Source of the DNA: Asticcacaulis taihuensis
GTDB taxonomy: Bacteria; Pseudomonadota; Alphaproteobacteria; Caulobacterales; Caulobacteraceae
Direction: 5' to 3'
NCBI RefSeq assembly: GCF_900100255.1
Contig: NZ_FMTS01000005.1
Span: forward strand, 248,001-312,000
Length of the DNA: 64,000 nt
Below the pieces are notes generated by a model. The model saw only the letters and a program-made list of their open reading frames with translations, had not been told where the DNA came from and did no database searches. The translations under genes were made by a program, and so were the position numbers. This document shows, piece after piece, positions 31,944 to 42,676 of the stretch. Every line of letters starts with the position of its first letter. Position 1 is the stretch's first letter.

Positions 31944-32534
31944 TTAAGCGGCCTTTCCGTGGGATTGTTCGTAAGCTTCAATTTGCGGCAGGCGCTTTTG
32001 CAGCCAACCCATGGCATCCACGCCTTCCAGCAGGCACTGGCGGGCGAATTCCTCGACCTGGAAGGTGAAGACGGTGCCGTCTTCCAGGGTCAGGGCGCAT
32101 TTTTCCAGATCGACGGTAACGCGCTGCTGCGGGTTCTTGAGCAGCTTGTCATAGGTCGGCTGATCGACCACGATCGGCACCAGGCCGTTCTTGAGCGAGT
32201 TCGACTTGAAGATGTCGGCGATCTCGGTCGAGATCACGGCCTTGAAGCCATAGTCCATTAACGCCCACGGGGCGTGTTCGCGCGACGAGCCGCAGCCGAG
32301 ATTGTTGCCGGCCACCAGCACGCGGTGCTCGGTCGGGTCGATGGTGTTGAGGATGAAATCCTTGTTCGAGCCATCGGCATTGTAGCGCCAGTCATTGAAC
32401 GCCACCTTGCCGAGACCGGCCTTGGTGGTGGTGGTCAGGAAGCGGGCTGGAATGATCTGGTCGGTATCGATATTGGCTTCCGGCAGGACGACGATGCGCG
32501 ACGAGAAGCTGTTTACGGGTTCCTGATTGGACAT
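31944..32534 (-). CDS. leuD: 3-isopropylmalate dehydratase small subunit
   Basis: 196 residues. SSRIVVLPEANIDTDQIIPA, FLTTTTKAGLGKVAFNDWRY, LVAGNNLGCGSSREHAPWAL and AVISTEIADIFKSN are the swivelling-domain motifs of LeuD. With LeuC it isomerises 2-isopropylmalate to 3-isopropylmalate. It starts three bases after the leuC stop and ends directly at leuB. Confidence 0.95.
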   Translation of the reverse strand: MSNQEPVNSFSSRIVVLPEANIDTDQIIPARFLTTTTKAGLGKVAFNDWRYNADGSNKDFILNTIDPTEHRVLVAGNNLGCGSSREHAPWALMDYGFKAVISTEIADIFKSNSLKNGLVPIVVDQPTYDKLLKNPQQRVTVDLEKCALTLEDGTVFTFQVEEFARQCLLEGVDAMGWLQKRLPQIEAYEQSHGKAA

Positions 32535-32537
32535 GGA

Positions 32538-33962
32538 TTAAGCCTCCTCAAGAGCCATGAATTGACGGGGATCGGCGACATGGCCGGCGATGGCGGAGGC
32601 GGCAGCGGTGGCCGGCGAGGCCAGTACGGTGCGCGAACCGGGGCCCTGGCGGCCTTCGAAGTTGCGGTTCGAGGTCGAAACGGCCAATTGGCCCGGCAGG
32701 ACGAAGTCACCATTCATGGCGATGCACATCGAGCAGCCCGGCAGACGCCATTCGGCGCCGGCCTCGGTGAAGATCTTGTCCAGGCCTTCCTTTTCGGCCT
32801 CGACACGAACCCATTCCGAACCCGGTACGACGAGGGCGCGCACGCCTTCAGCGACCTTGCGACCCTTGAAGATTTCGGCCGCGGCGCGCAGGTCGGCCAT
32901 GCGGCCGTTGGTGCACGAGCCGATGAAGACGACATCGACCTTCTCGACTTCGCGCTTTTCGCCGCCGGTGAAGTGCATGTACTTCAGGGCGCGTTCTTCA
33001 TCCTCGTTGGCGGCCACGGGCACGCCCTTGACGATCGGGGCGCCCTGATCCGGGCTGGTGCCCCAGGTGGCCATCGGCTCGATGGCCGAGCCGTCGATGC
33101 GGATTTCCTTGTCGAAGGTAGCGCCATCGTCGGACTTCAGCTTTAGCCACTCAGCGGCGGCGGCATCGTAGGCCTCGCCTTGCGGCACATACTGACGGCC
33201 GCGCAGCCAGTCGACCGTCTTCTGGTCGGGGGCGATCATGCCGCAGCGGGCGCCGGCTTCGATGGAGAGGTTGCAGACCGTCATGCGGCCTTCCATGTCC
33301 AGCGCCTCGATGACCGGGCCGGCATATTCCAGCGCGTAGCCGGTGCCACCCGAAAATCCCAAGGTGGCGATGACCGTCAGGGCAACGTCCTTGCCGGTGA
33401 CGCCCGGCTGGAGCTTGCCGTCGATGGTGATGCGCATGGTCTTGGGCTTGCGCTGGGCCAGGCACTGGGTGGCCAGGACGTGGCCGACTTCCGAGGTGCC
33501 GATGCCGAAGGCGATGCAGCCAAAGGCGCCGTGGGTCGAGGTGTGCGAGTCGCCGCAGACGACCGTGTAGCCCGGCTGGGTCAGGCCCATTTCCGGCCCG
33601 ATGACGTGGACGACGCCGCGGTTCTCAGCATCATAGCCGAAGAGGCGCACGCCGTTCTTGGCGGCATTCTGTTCGAGCGTATGGACCTGGATTTCCGCCT
33701 GCTTGGTGACGTAGGGGCGATTGCCTTGCGCATCGGGGCGCAGGGTCGGAATCGAGTGATCCAGGGTGGCGAAGGTGCGGTCCGGGCGGCGGACCTTCAG
33801 GCCGCGTGCCTCCAGTTCGGAAAACGCCTGCGGGCTCGTGACTTCGTGGACCAGGTGCAGGTCGATATAGAGCACGGCGGGGCTGTTGGCGCCCTCCGGC
33901 TCGACGACGTGCGCGTCCCATACTTTTTCAAACAGCGACTTTGGTCGGGTAGATTGGGCCAT
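32538..33962 (-). CDS. leuC: 3-isopropylmalate dehydratase large subunit
   Basis: 474 residues of the aconitase family: [50 protein letters not shown], then the 4Fe-4S ligands in [15 protein letters not shown] and the [11 protein letters not shown] motif, and a final [20 protein letters not shown]. First gene of leuCDB. A palindromic repeat element separates it from ilvE upstream on the same strand, so readthrough from ilvE is possible. Confidence 0.95.
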
Positions 33963-34118: not shown

Positions 34119-35063
34119 TTACTCGGCCGGGACGGGCGCCTGGATCGGGTCCAGCCAACCGAAGCGGTCTTCCGTGGTGCCGTTGAACAGGCCGTGGAAC
34201 AGGGTCATCAGACGCTTGGTGACCTTGCCCGGACCGGCGGCGCGGGTGGGGATATCATCGACCGAACGGATCGGAGTGATTTCCGCCGCCGTGCCGCACA
34301 TGAAGATTTCGTCAGCCAGGTACATCATCTCGCGCGGCAGGGCCTGTTCGATGACTTCGATGCCATCGGCCCTGGCCAGCTTGATGATCGAATCGCGCGT
34401 GATGCCGCCGAGGATGGAGGCCGCGACCGGCGGGGTGTGGATCTTGCCGTTCATGATCAGGAACAGGTTTTCACCCGCGCCTTCCGACAGACGGCCGTCG
34501 GTACCCAAACCAATACCTTCAGCATAACCACGACCACGGGCTTCCTTGCCGATCAGGTAGGACGACAGATAGTTGCCACCCATCTTCGCGGCGGTCGGGA
34601 TGGTGTTCGGCGCGGCGCGCTGCCACGACGAGATGCAGACATCCACGCCCTTTTGCAGGCCCTCTTCACCGAGATAGGCGCCCCACGGGAAGGCGGCGAC
34701 GGCGAAATCGACCTTGATGTTATCGCCCTTCGGCGTGACGCCGAGGCCGTTTTCACCCAGGAAGGCAACCGGACGCCAGTAGGCACTCTTCAGGCCGTTG
34801 GCGGTGAGGGTGTCCTTACAGGCCGCGATCATCTGATCCAGCGTGTAGGGGATTTTGATGCCGTAGATACGGGCGGAATCTTCGAGGCGGATCAGGTGGT
34901 CGCGCAGGCGGAAACCGACCGAGCCATTCGGCGTGTCATAGGCGCGGATGCCTTCGAAGACGGAGGTGCCGTAGTGCAGGGCGTGGGTCAGAACGTGGAC
35001 CTTGGCGTCTTCCCAGGCAACCATTTGGCCGTTCAGCCAGATTTTGTCAGCGAGTTTTGTCAT
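34119..35063 (-). CDS. ilvE: branched-chain amino-acid aminotransferase
   Basis: 314 residues from ATG 35063; 20 upstream codons are open but unlike the family. PLP class IV signature: IWLNGQMVAWEDAKVHVLTH, GTSVFEGIRAYDT, LRDHLIRLEDSARIY, the Lys of TAAKMGGNYLSS that holds PLP, GIGLGTDGRLSEGAGENLF, GGITRDSIIKLA and EIFMCGTAAEITPI. It transfers amino groups between glutamate and the 2-oxo acids of Leu, Ile and Val. No strong Shine-Dalgarno is seen. It lies between ilvB/ilvM and leuC on the same strand. Confidence 0.93.
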   Translation of the reverse strand: MTKLADKIWLNGQMVAWEDAKVHVLTHALHYGTSVFEGIRAYDTPNGSVGFRLRDHLIRLEDSARIYGIKIPYTLDQMIAACKDTLTANGLKSAYWRPVAFLGENGLGVTPKGDNIKVDFAVAAFPWGAYLGEEGLQKGVDVCISSWQRAAPNTIPTAAKMGGNYLSSYLIGKEARGRGYAEGIGLGTDGRLSEGAGENLFLIMNGKIHTPPVAASILGGITRDSIIKLARADGIEVIEQALPREMMYLADEIFMCGTAAEITPIRSVDDIPTRAAGPGKVTKRLMTLFHGLFNGTTEDRFGWLDPIQAPVPAE

Positions 35064-35221
35064 GTTCAACAATCTTGATATGTTCGTATTGGGGAGTTCT
35101 GTACGCCTTTTCACAGGCGTCAAAAAGATGGATTTTGCTTAAAACAACCCAAATACTTGGCCGGGGCCGCGACCACGGCCCCGATACCTCATCCCCTGAC
35201 TTCCTGCCGTCGCCTGCGTGC

Positions 35222-35500
35222 TCATGCGCTGACCTTGCTCTTCGCTGCCGGCGCAGAAGCGCCGCGCGGATCACTGGCCAGACGCTTGATGCCGTAAAGA
35301 CGATCGATCTGCAGGCCGAGAATATCCGTGTTGCGTGAGGGGTCACGCGGACGCACCGTCAGGGACAGGCCGCGCTTGTCCTCGCCGAGATCGTAGAGTT
35401 CAGCACCATCGATGTTGAACCCCCGCCGCTCGACGAGGCCCAGAATTCGCAGGAGGCTGCCTTCGAGGCGATCCAGCTCAATATGAATCAAGTGGCTCAT
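35222..35500 (-). CDS. short ACT-domain regulatory subunit of acetolactate synthase (IlvM-like)
   Basis: 92 residues, overlapping the 3' end of the large-subunit gene by 23 nt, which implies translational coupling. One ACT domain: HIELDRLEGSLLRILGLVER, RGFNIDGAEL, RGLSLTVRPRD, LGLQIDRLYGIKRL. At 92 residues it is much shorter than the IlvN/IlvH type (about 160-180), nearer to IlvM of E. coli AHAS II. It should activate the catalytic subunit and possibly mediate valine response. Confidence 0.8.
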   Translation of the reverse strand: MSHLIHIELDRLEGSLLRILGLVERRGFNIDGAELYDLGEDKRGLSLTVRPRDPSRNTDILGLQIDRLYGIKRLASDPRGASAPAAKSKVSA

Positions 35501-37163
35501 CCCAACGCTCCTCCATCATTTCCGCATTCGAGGCGCCTGGGGGAACCAGGGGCCAGACGTTTTCGCGCGGATCAATTAACACATGCAACAGGGTTGGCCC
35601 CTCGGCGGCCAGCAGCTTGTCCAGCGCCCCCTCGACCTCATGGCGATGAGTGATGCGGAAGGCGGACAGGCCAAAGGCGCGGGCGACCTCGACGAAGTCG
35701 GGATTGTCCGACAGGTCGATTTCACTGTAATTTTCCTGGTAGAATAGCTCCTGCCACTGACGCACCAGGCCGAGCGAGGAGTTGTCCAGAAGAACGATCT
35801 TCAGGGGGATATTGTAGCGATTGAGCGTCGCCATCTCCTGAATATTCATCATGAAGCTGCCATCGCCCGAAATGGTGACGACGTGGTGGTCGGGCTTGGC
35901 CAGCTTGGCGCCGACCCCGGCCGGCAGGCCGTAGCCCATGGCGCCTGAGCCGCCGGAGGTCAGGTGACCGCGGTTGTGGGCGAATTCGCAGTGCTGCGCC
36001 ACCCACATCTGGTGCTGGCCGACGTCACAGGCGGCGATGAAGGTATCACCGGCCTTTTCCGACAGCGATTTCAGCAGGCCCGGCGCATAGATGCCCTTGC
36101 CTGGCGCATTGTACTTGAAGCGGTATTCCCACTTGTCGGCCTTGCACTTCTCGACCCACTTCTGGATACCCTGAACCTTGGGGTTCAGGGTCTCGATGGT
36201 GGTCTTGAGATTGCCGACAATGGCGACATCGGCGCGGCGCAGCTTGTTGATCTCGGCCGGATCAATATCGGCGTGGATGATCCTGGCGTTCGGCGCGAAG
36301 GCGTTCAGCTTGCCGGTGGCGCGGTCATCGAAGCGCGCGCCCAGCACGATCAGCAGGTCCGAATCCTGGACGGCGATATTGGCGGCACGGGTGCCGTGCA
36401 TACCCAGCATACCAAGGAACAGGTCATCGGTGGTCGGGATTGTGCCCAGCCCCTTCAGGGTAGAGACGGCGGGAATGCCGGTACGGGCGACCAGAGCGCG
36501 CAATTCGGCGGAAGCGTGGGCCATCTCGACCCCGCCGCCGATATAGAACAGCGGGTGCTTCGATTGTTCGATCAGTTTTTCAGCCGCCCGGATGGCAGAG
36601 GCGTCCGGTTCGGGCGCGGTCCATTCCGGGAAGGTGGCGGCACCGGAAACGGCGACGTAAGAGGCCGCGACGTCCTTCGGGATATCGACCAGCACCGGGC
36701 CGGGACGGCCTTCGGCGGCGATCGCAAAGGCTTCGGACAGGATGGCGGGGATATCGGCGGCGTTACGGACCAGCCACGAATGTTTGACAATCGGCAGGGT
36801 CAGGCCCAGGATATCGACTTCCTGGAAGCCGTCCGTACCCATCAGGTGCGTGGCGACCTGGCCGGTGATGCAGACGAGCGGGACGCTGTCCATATAGGCA
36901 TTGGCGATGCCGGTGATCAGGTTGGTGGCGCCGGGACCGGACGTGGCCATGCAGACGCCGGTCTTGCCGGTGGCGCGCGCATAGGCGTCTGCGGCAAACG
37001 CCGCGCCCTGCTCATGGCGCACCAGGATATGCTGCAAACCAGAACCGGCCAAAGCATCATAGATGGGCATGATGGCGCCGCCGGGATAGCCGAACACGGT
37101 CTCGACCCCCAGCGCCTTCAGCGTGGAGATGACCAGTTGTGCGCCTGTCGGTTGGTTGCTCAT
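35478..37163 (-). CDS. ilvB: acetolactate synthase large (catalytic) subunit
   Basis: 561 residues from ATG 37163; a longer frame upstream covers the intergenic hairpin and is not like the family. ThDP enzyme: GYPGGAIMPIYDAL, LVRHEQGAAFAADAYARATG with the catalytic Glu, TSGPGATNLITG, PVLVDIPKDV, FDDRATGKLNAFAP (FAD region), ISGDGSFMMNIQEMATL with N at LLDNSSLGLVRQWQ (ThDP/Mg). It condenses pyruvate with pyruvate or 2-oxobutyrate. Preceded by ilvC (101 bp) and overlapping the ilvM-like gene. ilvB and ilvG cannot be told apart by sequence alone. Confidence 0.93.
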   Translation of the reverse strand: MSNQPTGAQLVISTLKALGVETVFGYPGGAIMPIYDALAGSGLQHILVRHEQGAAFAADAYARATGKTGVCMATSGPGATNLITGIANAYMDSVPLVCITGQVATHLMGTDGFQEVDILGLTLPIVKHSWLVRNAADIPAILSEAFAIAAEGRPGPVLVDIPKDVAASYVAVSGAATFPEWTAPEPDASAIRAAEKLIEQSKHPLFYIGGGVEMAHASAELRALVARTGIPAVSTLKGLGTIPTTDDLFLGMLGMHGTRAANIAVQDSDLLIVLGARFDDRATGKLNAFAPNARIIHADIDPAEINKLRRADVAIVGNLKTTIETLNPKVQGIQKWVEKCKADKWEYRFKYNAPGKGIYAPGLLKSLSEKAGDTFIAACDVGQHQMWVAQHCEFAHNRGHLTSGGSGAMGYGLPAGVGAKLAKPDHHVVTISGDGSFMMNIQEMATLNRYNIPLKIVLLDNSSLGLVRQWQELFYQENYSEIDLSDNPDFVEVARAFGLSAFRITHRHEVEGALDKLLAAEGPTLLHVLIDPRENVWPLVPPGASNAEMMEERWDEPLDSY

Positions 37164-37264: not shown

Positions 37265-38284
<1,020 letters not shown>

Positions 38285-38302: not shown

Positions 38303-38905
38303 TTAAAAGGAACCGTCGCGGGTGACCGAGGTCACCATGCGGGCATATTTTTCCAGGGCGCCGGCGCCGAAGGTCTTTTGACCGGGCTTTTGCATCCTGG
38401 CGGCACGGCGCATGTCGATATCGGCGAGGATATCGATGCGGCGCGCCGCGATGTCGATGTGGATGATGTCGTCGTCATTGATATAGGCGATCGGGCCGCG
38501 CGCCGAGGCGGACGGCGCGACCTGACCGATGACCGACCCGGAACAGGTGCCAATATGACCGTCGGTGATGAGGGTGACGCGCTCGATGCCGGCGCCTTCC
38601 AGGGCGGCGCTGATGTCGCCGAGATCGTCGGCGCGATAGGCCATGTCGCCTTCGTGGCGGATGATGACGATGTCGCAATCGCGGATCTGGCCGGCATGAA
38701 CCGCCGCCAGGGCGTCACCGGCGGATTCGAAGACGCGGGCACGACCGTCATAGGCTTCGGTTGTGAAACCATCGAGGCGGATGACGCAGCCAGCAGGTGC
38801 CAGCGAACCATGGAGAATAGCGAAGCCTTGCGAAGCGCGTACCACGGCGGCCGAACCCTTGAACGGGGCGGCTGTCTGCGTGTTGATCTGGCTCTGCATG
38901 GTCAC
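38303..38905 (-). CDS. stand-alone IlvD/Edd C-terminal-domain protein
   Basis: 200 residues, GTG start (GGAAGAG eight bases before; ATG 38899 is the alternative). It corresponds to the C-terminal beta-barrel domain of dihydroxy-acid dehydratase: FKGSAAVVRASQG resembles the LAVLYGN region, PAGCVIRLDGF resembles GCIVKTAG, then GRARVFESAGDALAAVHAGQ, CDIVIIRHEG, ITDGHIGTCSGSVIGQVAPS, GPIAYINDDDIIHIDIAARR and LEKYARMVTSVTRDGSF. All Fe-S cysteines and the N-terminal domain of IlvD are absent. The GPKGGPGM loop is lost. It cannot be a dehydratase alone. First structural gene behind the attenuator, ahead of ilvC, so a regulatory or partner role with IlvD (40811-42676) is plausible. Confidence 0.8.
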   Translation of the reverse strand: MTMQSQINTQTAAPFKGSAAVVRASQGFAILHGSLAPAGCVIRLDGFTTEAYDGRARVFESAGDALAAVHAGQIRDCDIVIIRHEGDMAYRADDLGDISAALEGAGIERVTLITDGHIGTCSGSVIGQVAPSASARGPIAYINDDDIIHIDIAARRIDILADIDMRRAARMQKPGQKTFGAGALEKYARMVTSVTRDGSF

Positions 38906-38942: not shown

Positions 38943-38970
38943 AAAAAATCCCGCTCAGGTCAGGAGCGGG
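38943..38970 (-). terminator. ilv attenuator terminator
   Basis: On the minus strand CCCGCTC (38970-38964), 7-nt loop, GAGCGGG (38956-38950), then a T-run (38948-38943). It lies between the leader ORF stop (39009) and the first ilv gene (38905). Upstream alternatives that could compete: GAGGAT/ATCCTC next to it and GCAGGT/ACCCGC (one mismatch). Confidence 0.85.
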
Positions 38971-39008: not shown

Positions 39009-39158
39009 CTACCACTCCGAAAGCATGGGGCGTACTACGCCCCCAATAAGCAGCGATACGAGGTCAAGTACAATGACAGCCATAACGAACGAGGTCGCCA
39101 GAGCGCGAAGCTCTTGCGTCTTGTTCTTTGCAATGGCGATGGCCGAAGCCTTGGTCAT
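39009..39158 (-). CDS. ilv operon leader peptide (or small membrane protein)
   Basis: 49 codons from ATG 39158 with GGAG nine bases upstream. The sequence starts MTKASAIAIAKNKTQELRAL and its second half (about 24-46) is loaded with Val, Leu and Ile (VMAVIVLDLVSLLIGGVV), ending PMLSEW. It sits directly before a terminator and the ilv genes, the classic layout of attenuation by branched-chain aminoacyl-tRNA supply. A GGGGCGT-AGT-ACGCCCC hairpin lies inside its 3' part (39027-39043). Attenuation of ilvBN has been described in Caulobacter. It could also be a stable one-helix membrane peptide. Confidence 0.7.
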   Translation of the reverse strand: MTKASAIAIAKNKTQELRALATSFVMAVIVLDLVSLLIGGVVRPMLSEW

Positions 39159-40438: not shown

Positions 40439-40444
40439 GGCTAT

Positions 40445-40634
40445 CCACAGATTACACAGATTGCGCAGATTTTTAGAAAGGGAAGGAATCCACAGATTAA
40501 GCCAGGTAAGCGCAGATGATTTGATGCGGGCTGTGATTCAGGCGCGAAATGAAGCCCATTCTTATGCGCCTTCGGCGCGTCTTATGACTTATCACGTGCT
40601 CGAACCATCTGTGCAATCTGTGTAATCTGTGGAT
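40445..40634. repeat. intergenic element flanked by 26-bp inverted repeats (ATCCACAGATTACACAGATT type)
   Basis: CCACAGATTACACAGATTGC + GCAGAT (40445-40470) is repeated inverted at 40609-40634 with a single mismatch; about 138 bp lie between. A third, partial copy (ATCCACAGATTAAGC) is at 40489, and the centre holds a GCGC-CTTC-GGCGC hairpin. The same CCACAGATTNCACAGAT word is scattered through many bacterial genomes. No transposase is present, so it is non-autonomous or simply a structural repeat. Confidence 0.75.
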
Positions 40635-40760
40635 CACCTTATCCTTCGTGAAATCGCAAAAATCATTGCCTTAAATCGGATGAGGACTATATAGAGCCCA
40701 TCCCGCAAAACCTTGTTCCGTCTACATTTGCTTACATAGGTAACGGGTTTTTGTTTTACC

Positions 40761-40810: not shown

Positions 40811-42676
40811 ATGCCCGCCTTACGTTCCCGCACCACCACCTTCGGCCGCAACATGGCGGGCGCGCGGGCGCTCTGGCGGGCCACCGGCATGAAGAACGAG
40901 GATTTCTCCAAGCCGATCATCGCGGTCGTCAACTCCTTCACCCAGTTCGTGCCGGGCCACGTTCATCTGAAAGACCTCGGCCAACTTGTGGCGCGCGAGA
41001 TCGAGAAGGCTGGCGGCGTTGCCAAGGAATTCAACACCATCGCGGTCGACGACGGCATCGCCATGGGCCACGGCGGGATGCTCTATTCACTGCCGTCGCG
41101 CGACATCATCGCCGACAGCGTCGAATATATGGTCAATGCCCACTGCGCCGACGCCATGGTCTGCATCTCGAACTGCGACAAGATCACGCCGGGGATGCTG
41201 AATGCCGCCCTGCGCATCAATATCCCCGTCATCTTCGTCTCCGGTGGCCCGATGGAGGCCGGCAAGGTGGTCTGGCCCGATGAAAGCGGCAAGGCGAAAA
41301 CCCATGCGCTCGATCTGGTTGATGCCATGATGCAGGCCGGCGATGACCGCATTTCCGATGCCCAGGTCCAGGCCGTCGAGGAAGCCGCCTGCCCGACCTG
41401 CGGCTCGTGCTCCGGCATGTTCACCGCCAATTCGATGAACTGCCTGACCGAAGCGCTCGGCCTGTCGCTCCCCGGCAATGGCACGACGCTTGCCACCCAC
41501 TCCGACCGTCAGCGCCTGTTCTGCGAAGCCGGCCGCACCATCGTCGACCTGTGCGACCGCTGGTACGGCCAGGACGACGCCTCGGTGCTGCCGCGCTCCA
41601 TCGCCACCAAGGAAGCCTTCGAGAACGCCATGACGCTCGACGTCGCCATGGGCGGCTCGACCAATACCGTGCTGCATATCCTGGCCGCGGCGCAGGAAGC
41701 CGGTGTCGATTTCACCATGCAGGACATCGACCGGATTTCGCGCAAGACGCCCTGCATCTGCAAGGTAGCGCCGGCCTCTTCGGAGGTGCATATCGAGGAC
41801 GTTCACCGCGCCGGCGGCATTGTCGGCATCATGGGCGAACTGCATCGCGGCGGCCTGATCCATGGCGAACAGCCGACCGTGCATTCGCCCACACTGGCCG
41901 CGGCGCTGGCCCACTGGGACATCAAATCCTCCAATGATTCCTCGGTCGCCGAATTCTTCAAGGCGGCGCCGGGCGGCGTGCGCACCACGCAGGCCTTCTC
42001 ACAATCGAAGCGCTGGGACGAACTCGACACCAACCGCCAGTCGGGTGTGATCCGCTCGGTCGAGAACGCCTTCACCAAGGATGGCGGCCTGGCTGTGCTC
42101 TACGGCAATATCGCCGAAAAGGGCTGCATCGTGAAAACCGCCGGGGTCGATGAATCTATCTGGAAGTTTACTGGCAAGGCGCGCGTGTTTGAAAGCCAGG
42201 ATTCGGCAACGACCGCCATCCTCGGCAACCAGATCGTCGAAGGCGATGTCGTGGTCATCCGCTACGAAGGCCCCAAGGGCGGTCCGGGCATGCAGGAAAT
42301 GCTCTACCCAACCACCTATCTGAAGTCCAAGGGGTTGGGCAAGGCCTGCGCCTTGTTGACCGACGGCCGCTTCTCCGGCGGCACCTCGGGCCTGTCCATC
42401 GGCCATGCCTCGCCGGAAGCGGCGGCCGGTGGGCTGATCGCCCTTGTGGAAGACGGCGACCTGATCGAGATCGATATCCCGAACCGCACCATCCATCTGG
42501 TGCTGTCGGATCGTGAGATCGCCGAACGCCGCGCCGCCGAAGAGCATCGCGGGGCGGATGCCTACACACCGAAGAACCGCGAGCGCTATGTCTCCAAAGC
42601 ACTTCAGGCCTATGCGGCGCTTGTCACCTCGGCCGATACCGGTGCCGTGCGTGATCTGGGGCAACTGAAGAAGTAG
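40811..42676 (+). CDS. ilvD: dihydroxy-acid dehydratase
   Basis: 621 residues. Motifs: [50 protein letters not shown] and [20 protein letters not shown] (Fe-S ligand cysteines), [23 protein letters not shown], then the C-terminal barrel with [56 protein letters not shown] and [15 protein letters not shown]. The Cys pattern fits the 4Fe-4S type as in E. coli. It dehydrates dihydroxyisovalerate and dihydroxymethylvalerate. It is separated from the ilv operon and on the opposite strand, with its own regulatory hairpins. Confidence 0.96.

Follow-up and report, generated by a model that had tools for sequence, protein, structure and literature searches.

A conserved, pseudoenzyme-like IlvD C-terminal domain gene at the head of the ilv operon of Asticcacaulis

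Between the attenuator and ilvC, the ilv operon of Asticcacaulis taihuensis carries a gene for a stand-alone IlvD/EDD C-terminal domain (positions 38303-38905), for which we use the label DC. DC is a real conserved gene, specific to its genus as sampled, and encodes a pseudoenzyme-like domain whose likely origin is an IlvD that once headed the operon. The reading we prefer, to which we would give nearly an even chance, is that DC is a remnant of an operonic short-type IlvD that has been kept as a non-catalytic accessory, most likely through contact with a pathway enzyme.

Results

DC is a stand-alone IlvD/EDD C-terminal domain in an ilv operon

We analyzed a stretch of 64,000 nucleotides (the window; contig NZ_FMTS01000005.1 of assembly GCF_900100255.1), in which the operon and its neighbor are arranged as follows.

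40811..42676, plus strand, complete long-type ilvD, 621 aa (NCBIfam NF009103, 1161 bits; TIGR00110, 826 bits)
39009..39158, minus strand, ilv leader peptide ORF of 49 codons (MTKASAIAIAKNKTQELRALATSFVMAVIVLDLVSLLIGGVVRPMLSEW), rich in Val, Ile, and Leu, read from the sequence
38943..38970, minus strand, attenuator-like terminator, CCCGCTC-ctgacct-GAGCGGG followed by A and six T, read from the sequence
38303..38905, minus strand, DC, stand-alone IlvD/EDD C-terminal domain gene, 200 aa, GTG start with GGAAGAG upstream
37265..38272, minus strand, ilvC, ketol-acid reductoisomerase (NCBIfam NF004017, 502 bits, scanned from TTG 38284)
35478..37163, minus strand, ilvG-type acetolactate synthase large subunit (NCBIfam NF006524, 883 bits)
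35222..35500, minus strand, ilvM-type ACT-domain small subunit, 92 aa (Pfam PF13710 ACT_5, 40.9 bits), the name being inferred from size and place
34119..35069, minus strand, ilvE, branched-chain transaminase (NCBIfam NF005146, 405 bits, scanned from TTG 35123; ATG start chosen)
32538..33962, minus strand, leuC, named by sequence recognition and matched in relatives whose stretch extended that far
31944..32534, minus strand, leuD, an ORF named by sequence recognition

Farther downstream, leuD is followed by what we take, by recognition, to be leuB. The listed ORF of ilvC opens at TTG 38284, while GTG 38272 is, on our reading of the sequence, the start behind a ribosome-binding site (GGAGA). 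In several species the distance between ilvM and ilvE is about 1.5 kb (for example, about 4888-6535 in L046 and about 4583-6167 in L052; also L036-L039 and L041-L044), which leaves room for an extra gene that is absent from the window. Between a hydrolase-like gene and ilvD, at 40440-40640, a short motif of about atccacagattacacagattgcgcagat recurs several times, in direct or reverse-complement form, and by eye resembles a repetitive extragenic element.

Pfam PF24877 (ILV_EDD_C) matched DC over residues 22-195 with 120.9 bits, against a cut-off of 27.7, and at an E-value of 0.001 no second family was found in the protein, the N-terminal Fe-S domain PF00920 being unmatched. Models of full-length IlvD scored far below their curated cut-offs (TIGR00110, 123.6 against 618; NF002068, 130.3 against 644), and the top solved relative, the Mycobacterium tuberculosis IlvD 6ovt (E 5e-28), aligned over its residues 414-593 of 600. 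These results bear out the preliminary description, which had likened the product to the last third of dihydroxy-acid dehydratase, found it to be missing the N-terminal Fe-S domain, and placed the gene, with a ribosome-binding site, between the attenuator and ilvC. We correct its strand, since DC lies on the minus strand, and also its statement that the complete ilvD lies elsewhere: that gene is 1.9 kb from DC and divergently transcribed. The genome holds four full-length family members, and the ilvD cut-offs of NF009103 and TIGR00110 were passed by the long-type gene only; the remaining three scored as edd or within the NF009560 subfamily ("short-type" and "long-type" are labels coined in this analysis).

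The leader ORF, which includes the stretch VMAVIVLDLVSLLIGGVV, and the hairpin with its T-run have the anatomy of an attenuator, by which the operon would be regulated. A comparable leader ORF was found 5' of DC in all 25 Asticcacaulis loci, and a T-run (at least five T) lies 40 to 75 bases 5' of DC in 24 of them, the exception being G015. In all 25 species the best leader ORF ends in EW, mostly as P(M/L)xxEW, well past the Val, Ile, and Leu codons; attenuation alone gives no obvious need for such a conserved tail.

DC retains the fold and has lost the active-site motifs

In CcXyDHT (PMC5770437), the Fe-S cluster lies in the N-domain (residues 3-358), the C-domain spans residues 383-591, Glu463 is given as one of the Mg2+ ligands, and the proposed base is Ser490. 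By number, these two residues fall in the C-domain; the same source also places the Mg2+ site entirely in the N-domain. From motif alignment and residue spacing, we take Glu463 to be the glutamate of the PGMxE motif and Ser490 the serine of the DGRFS motif. The PGM of the first motif was absent from DC in all 25 species, the glutamate column being still acidic (Asp or Glu) in 16. The column of the catalytic serine held another residue in 23 of the 25, including the window; in G007 and G008 the column does contain serine, but in the context TDARTSG. Both motifs were present in the full-length sequences of the alignment, namely 18 relatives and the long-type IlvD. The APxAxxGGPIA stretch was also lost in 9 of the 25 DC rows. 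This loss of active-site motifs speaks against catalysis by DC.

The predicted structure of DC had a mean pLDDT of 78, with low values for residues 1-24. All 25 fold matches with E < 0.001 were IlvD/EDD enzymes, and the first match beyond them, at rank 26, was a weak one to the small subunit of 3-isopropylmalate isomerase (E 2e-3). Six positions are fixed in DC yet variable in the enzymes (F28, I30, H32, F47, R156, and D158). They could mark a new surface, as would be expected if DC had been recruited to a job outside the Ilv pathway while staying in the operon; since all 25 species have retained DC within the ilv operon, we regard such a recruitment as unlikely.

The retained fold is also what would be expected of a metabolite sensor or buffer, in which the barrel binds a dihydroxy acid, a keto acid, or a branched-chain amino acid and thereby alters IlvG or IlvD activity or expression of the operon. 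The substrate site of CcXyDHT lies in the inter-domain cavity and includes residues of the C-domain (PMC5770437). The residues lost from DC are, however, the C-domain residues that face substrate and Mg2+, and the rows that have lost APxAxxGGPIA likewise tell against binding, so that we consider a sensor unlikely as well, if anything slightly more so than recruitment.

DC evolves fast under constraint on the protein

DC was present in all 25 Asticcacaulis genomes examined, directly before ilvC-ilvG-ilvM and with ilvD on its other side. Its frame was open in every genome, the single stops reported in G009, G017, and G022 being frame ends. Identity to the window protein ranged from 94% down to 33% across the genus, and a C-terminal Tyr-Ala pair was invariant (25/25). 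The dN/dS of DC was 0.039-0.310 in 18 pairs, 16 of which had dS < 0.75; two deep pairs gave 0.44 and 0.67 at a dS of about 1 or more, where the ratio is unreliable. For the same pairs, the neighboring enzymes mostly had a dN/dS below that of DC, and ilvM was sometimes above it. The length of each gene's own tree was 6.42 for DC, 0.95 for ilvC, 1.38 for ilvG, 1.09 for ilvD, and 4.17 for ilvM, so that DC evolves about five to seven times faster than the neighboring enzymes. DC is therefore fast-evolving yet constrained. The dS of DC was not consistently below that of its neighbors; we accordingly rejected constraint at the RNA level and place the constraint on the protein.

It could also be that position alone matters, DC being a spacer of secondary sequence that is translated so as to maintain order at the attenuator or around the start of ilvC. 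DC does lie just after the leader and ahead of ilvC in 25 of 25 species, but its amino acid sequence is constrained while its synonymous sites are not, a separate ribosome-binding site serves ilvC in the window, and the distance from DC to ilvC varies by clade (30 nt in the window and longer in others), all of which makes a spacer improbable. Far less probable still is a decaying, functionless gene fragment. Fast evolution and the missing active-site motifs would suit decay; we rejected it on the open frames, which persist in 25 of 25 species even in groups just 33 to 48% identical to the window protein, and on dN/dS values that, in 18 pairs, fall far short of 1. The preliminary description had proposed an intact stand-alone gene at the head of the operon, to be refuted by absence from all relatives or by a frame decayed in sister genomes. 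Neither was seen: DC occurs throughout the 25 Asticcacaulis genomes with an open frame and a dN/dS of 0.04-0.31. With its homologous fold, lost catalytic residues, and purifying selection, DC has the hallmarks of a pseudoenzyme and would be inactive.

DC phylogeny disagrees with the operon-enzyme and rpoB phylogenies

The DC tree (DC genes including L045-L059) conflicts strongly with the rpoB and operon-enzyme trees in Asticcacaulis, and in AU tests DC rejected the operon topology and both rpoB topologies. The operon enzymes grouped the window and G019 with G017, G022, and G024 (support 99). The window DC, by comparison, is 61 to 66% identical to the DC of G007, G008, G010, and G021 and 44 to 48% identical to that of G017, G022, and G024. 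In the latter three genomes, a very divergent DC, with a branch length of 0.83 changes per site, stands beside an ilvD that is 92 to 95% identical to that of the window. Support for the DC grouping itself was 70. Two explanations suggest themselves, an exchange of DC between species or a quick remodeling of DC in the G017/G022/G024 group. The rpoB data likewise reject the operon tree, and the operon data those of rpoB, which makes some recombination within the operon likely.

DC is confined to Asticcacaulis as far as sampled

Of 36 genomes from the family and order but outside the genus, 33 gave a match, and the frames among the matches listed were at least 559 aa long. Wider searches covered 224 other genomes of the family and 189 other genomes of the class, at least two of which (G026 and G037) were shared with the earlier searches; they report matches listed or above threshold only, and weaker matches per genome fall outside them. 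The class search, at a threshold of 1e-30, left 73 of 190 genomes without a match. Ten frames in the family and class listings were shorter than 500 aa. Nine of these reach a contig end and cannot be judged, and in the tenth (G317, 489 aa) 291 residues precede the match, so that none of the ten was demonstrable as a lone C-domain. A pattern scan of the species collection gave 81 relatives, of which 80 were kept (16 Asticcacaulis and 64 others); its patterns caught DC itself in 13 of the 16 Asticcacaulis loci and the other three through their full-length ilvD, and the scan is thus not exhaustive. All 64 loci from outside the genus were measured: 62 had frames of at least 551 aa, and the frames of L105 (478 aa) and L111 (538 aa) extend to the start of the available stretch.

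Among the matches listed, we saw no stand-alone IlvD C-domain outside Asticcacaulis, the frames being full-length or ending at contig edges. As far as sampled, DC is confined to this genus. The preliminary description had looked to IlvD-C-only proteins across the Caulobacterales and their synteny with ilvC; conservation with ilvC was found in Asticcacaulis, and a spread through the Caulobacterales was not, in this sample. A search of the open-access literature found no description of this Asticcacaulis gene; a paper on Asticcacaulis and ilvD, PMC11775059, concerns a xylose pathway in yeast.

In this one genome we also found no gene for an N-domain-only PF00920 partner: PF00920 occurs at four places, all in frames of 601 to 662 aa that also contain the C-domain. 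A split dehydratase, with DC as its C-subunit and the N-domain supplied by a second protein, is thus the least tenable reading, and we rejected it on the missing partner and the lost catalytic motifs, even though the aconitase superfamily has split cases (in TkAcnX, the small subunit is a separate domain 4; PMC8184944) and the first fold match beyond IlvD/EDD is a small subunit of this kind. Like DC, LeuD and the small subunit of type II AcnX are stand-alone small domains beside a large Fe-S subunit, and the LeuD-type subunit bears a weak fold likeness to DC. Each of these small subunits makes up an active enzyme together with a large subunit dedicated to it, whereas DC has no catalytic motifs and, in this genome, no N-domain-only partner.

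DC groups with the operonic IlvD of relatives

We compared the loci of 13 relatives, which were chosen for their matches. A full-length ilvD lay immediately 5' of ilvC-ilvG in 8 of the 13, namely in all four loci from g3, a genus in the same family, where the order is ilvD-ilvC-ilvG-ilvM-leuC, and in all four from families f4 and f5. Of the other five, the G058 locus had just ilvD and leuC, and in four (g32, g7, and g12) there was no ilvC nearby. The operonic ilvD is not universal in g3, in which several genomes gave weak matches alone (E about 1e-14) and four gave none. The order ilvD-ilvC-ilvG was found in 5 of the 64 non-Asticcacaulis loci of the pattern scan (L070, L071, L075, L077, and L081). 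A mechanical search, run with no control, placed leader-like ORFs ahead of several relatives' operonic ilvD genes.

In a maximum-likelihood tree of 72 C-domains, the nine DC sampled formed a single group (100/98), and one starred set (99/97) brought DC together with every one of the 13 operonic IlvD and a single additional row, with the long-type IlvD apart from it; two DC branches are long, and the exact placement of DC is less sure. The operonic short-type IlvD of Caulobacterales relatives therefore resembles DC in its slot before ilvC-ilvG, its homologous C-domain, and its group in the tree. The 13 operonic IlvD have stop-to-stop frames of 561 to 630 aa with PGMxEM and DGRFS motifs, while DC is without the N-domain and the PGM and, in 23 of 25 species, without the serine. 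The long-type IlvD of the same genome shares the domain family with DC and lies close by, but is a complete enzyme with both motifs, has its C-domain elsewhere in the tree, and is 38% identical to DC. Because DC occupies the same slot as the operonic enzymes of relatives and groups with them in the tree, the best reading is that DC is what remains, at the C-terminal end, of the IlvD that the operon originally had.

Discussion

Selection on the protein, a constant position in the operon, and the loss of the active-site motifs together point to a non-catalytic role for DC that is tied to the pathway. We hypothesize that a short-type IlvD once headed the operon and that DC is its surviving C-terminal beta-barrel domain. 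The long-type IlvD next door, which presumably does the dehydratase chemistry today, would have taken over this reaction; the N-terminal Fe-S domain of the operonic enzyme would have been deleted, and the C-domain would have been retained as a non-catalytic accessory, co-produced with IlvC and IlvGM under attenuation control.

Contact with some pathway enzyme is the favored reading of how such an accessory might act, each partner being a candidate. DC would most likely work by protein contact, for instance by docking on IlvD (the C-terminus of one Ilv/ED enzyme enters the active site of its partner); alternatively, it may hold together an association of IlvD, IlvC, and IlvG in which the ancestral IlvD took part. 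The fast evolution of DC is unlike what is expected of a tightly docked subunit and counts against docking. So does the dimer interface of CcXyDHT, which is mostly formed by the N-domain (PMC5770437, section 7), because DC is without an N-domain. Rate covariation over 37 branches (10 gene pairs, uncorrected) gave -0.34 for DC and ilvD (p 0.038), +0.40 for DC and ilvG (p 0.015), -0.16 for DC and ilvC, and -0.10 for DC and ilvM. This test tells little, because the same-pathway pairs ilvC-ilvD (-0.44) and ilvC-ilvG (-0.39) were also negative, and it is distorted by the conflict between the DC and operon trees. Of the functions suggested in the preliminary description, in which DC may regulate or assemble IlvD or bind a pathway metabolite, those that involve IlvD gained no favor from this test.

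An enzyme that is replaced normally disappears. DC seemingly outlived its enzyme throughout the genus, in the original operon slot and after the loss of its active-site motifs. It is plausible, although we hold this more tentatively than the accessory role itself, that when the dehydratase was swapped Asticcacaulis retained the former enzyme's tail to act by itself as an adaptor or regulator of the pathway. If true, this would mean that, besides catalysis, the C-domain of IlvD has a second function in making branched-chain amino acids, one that had been hidden. Annotation pipelines may hide such proteins as truncated or partial ilvD. The survival of this one domain would be a natural experiment, and it suggests that an ancient enzyme's C-domain can do something besides catalysis.
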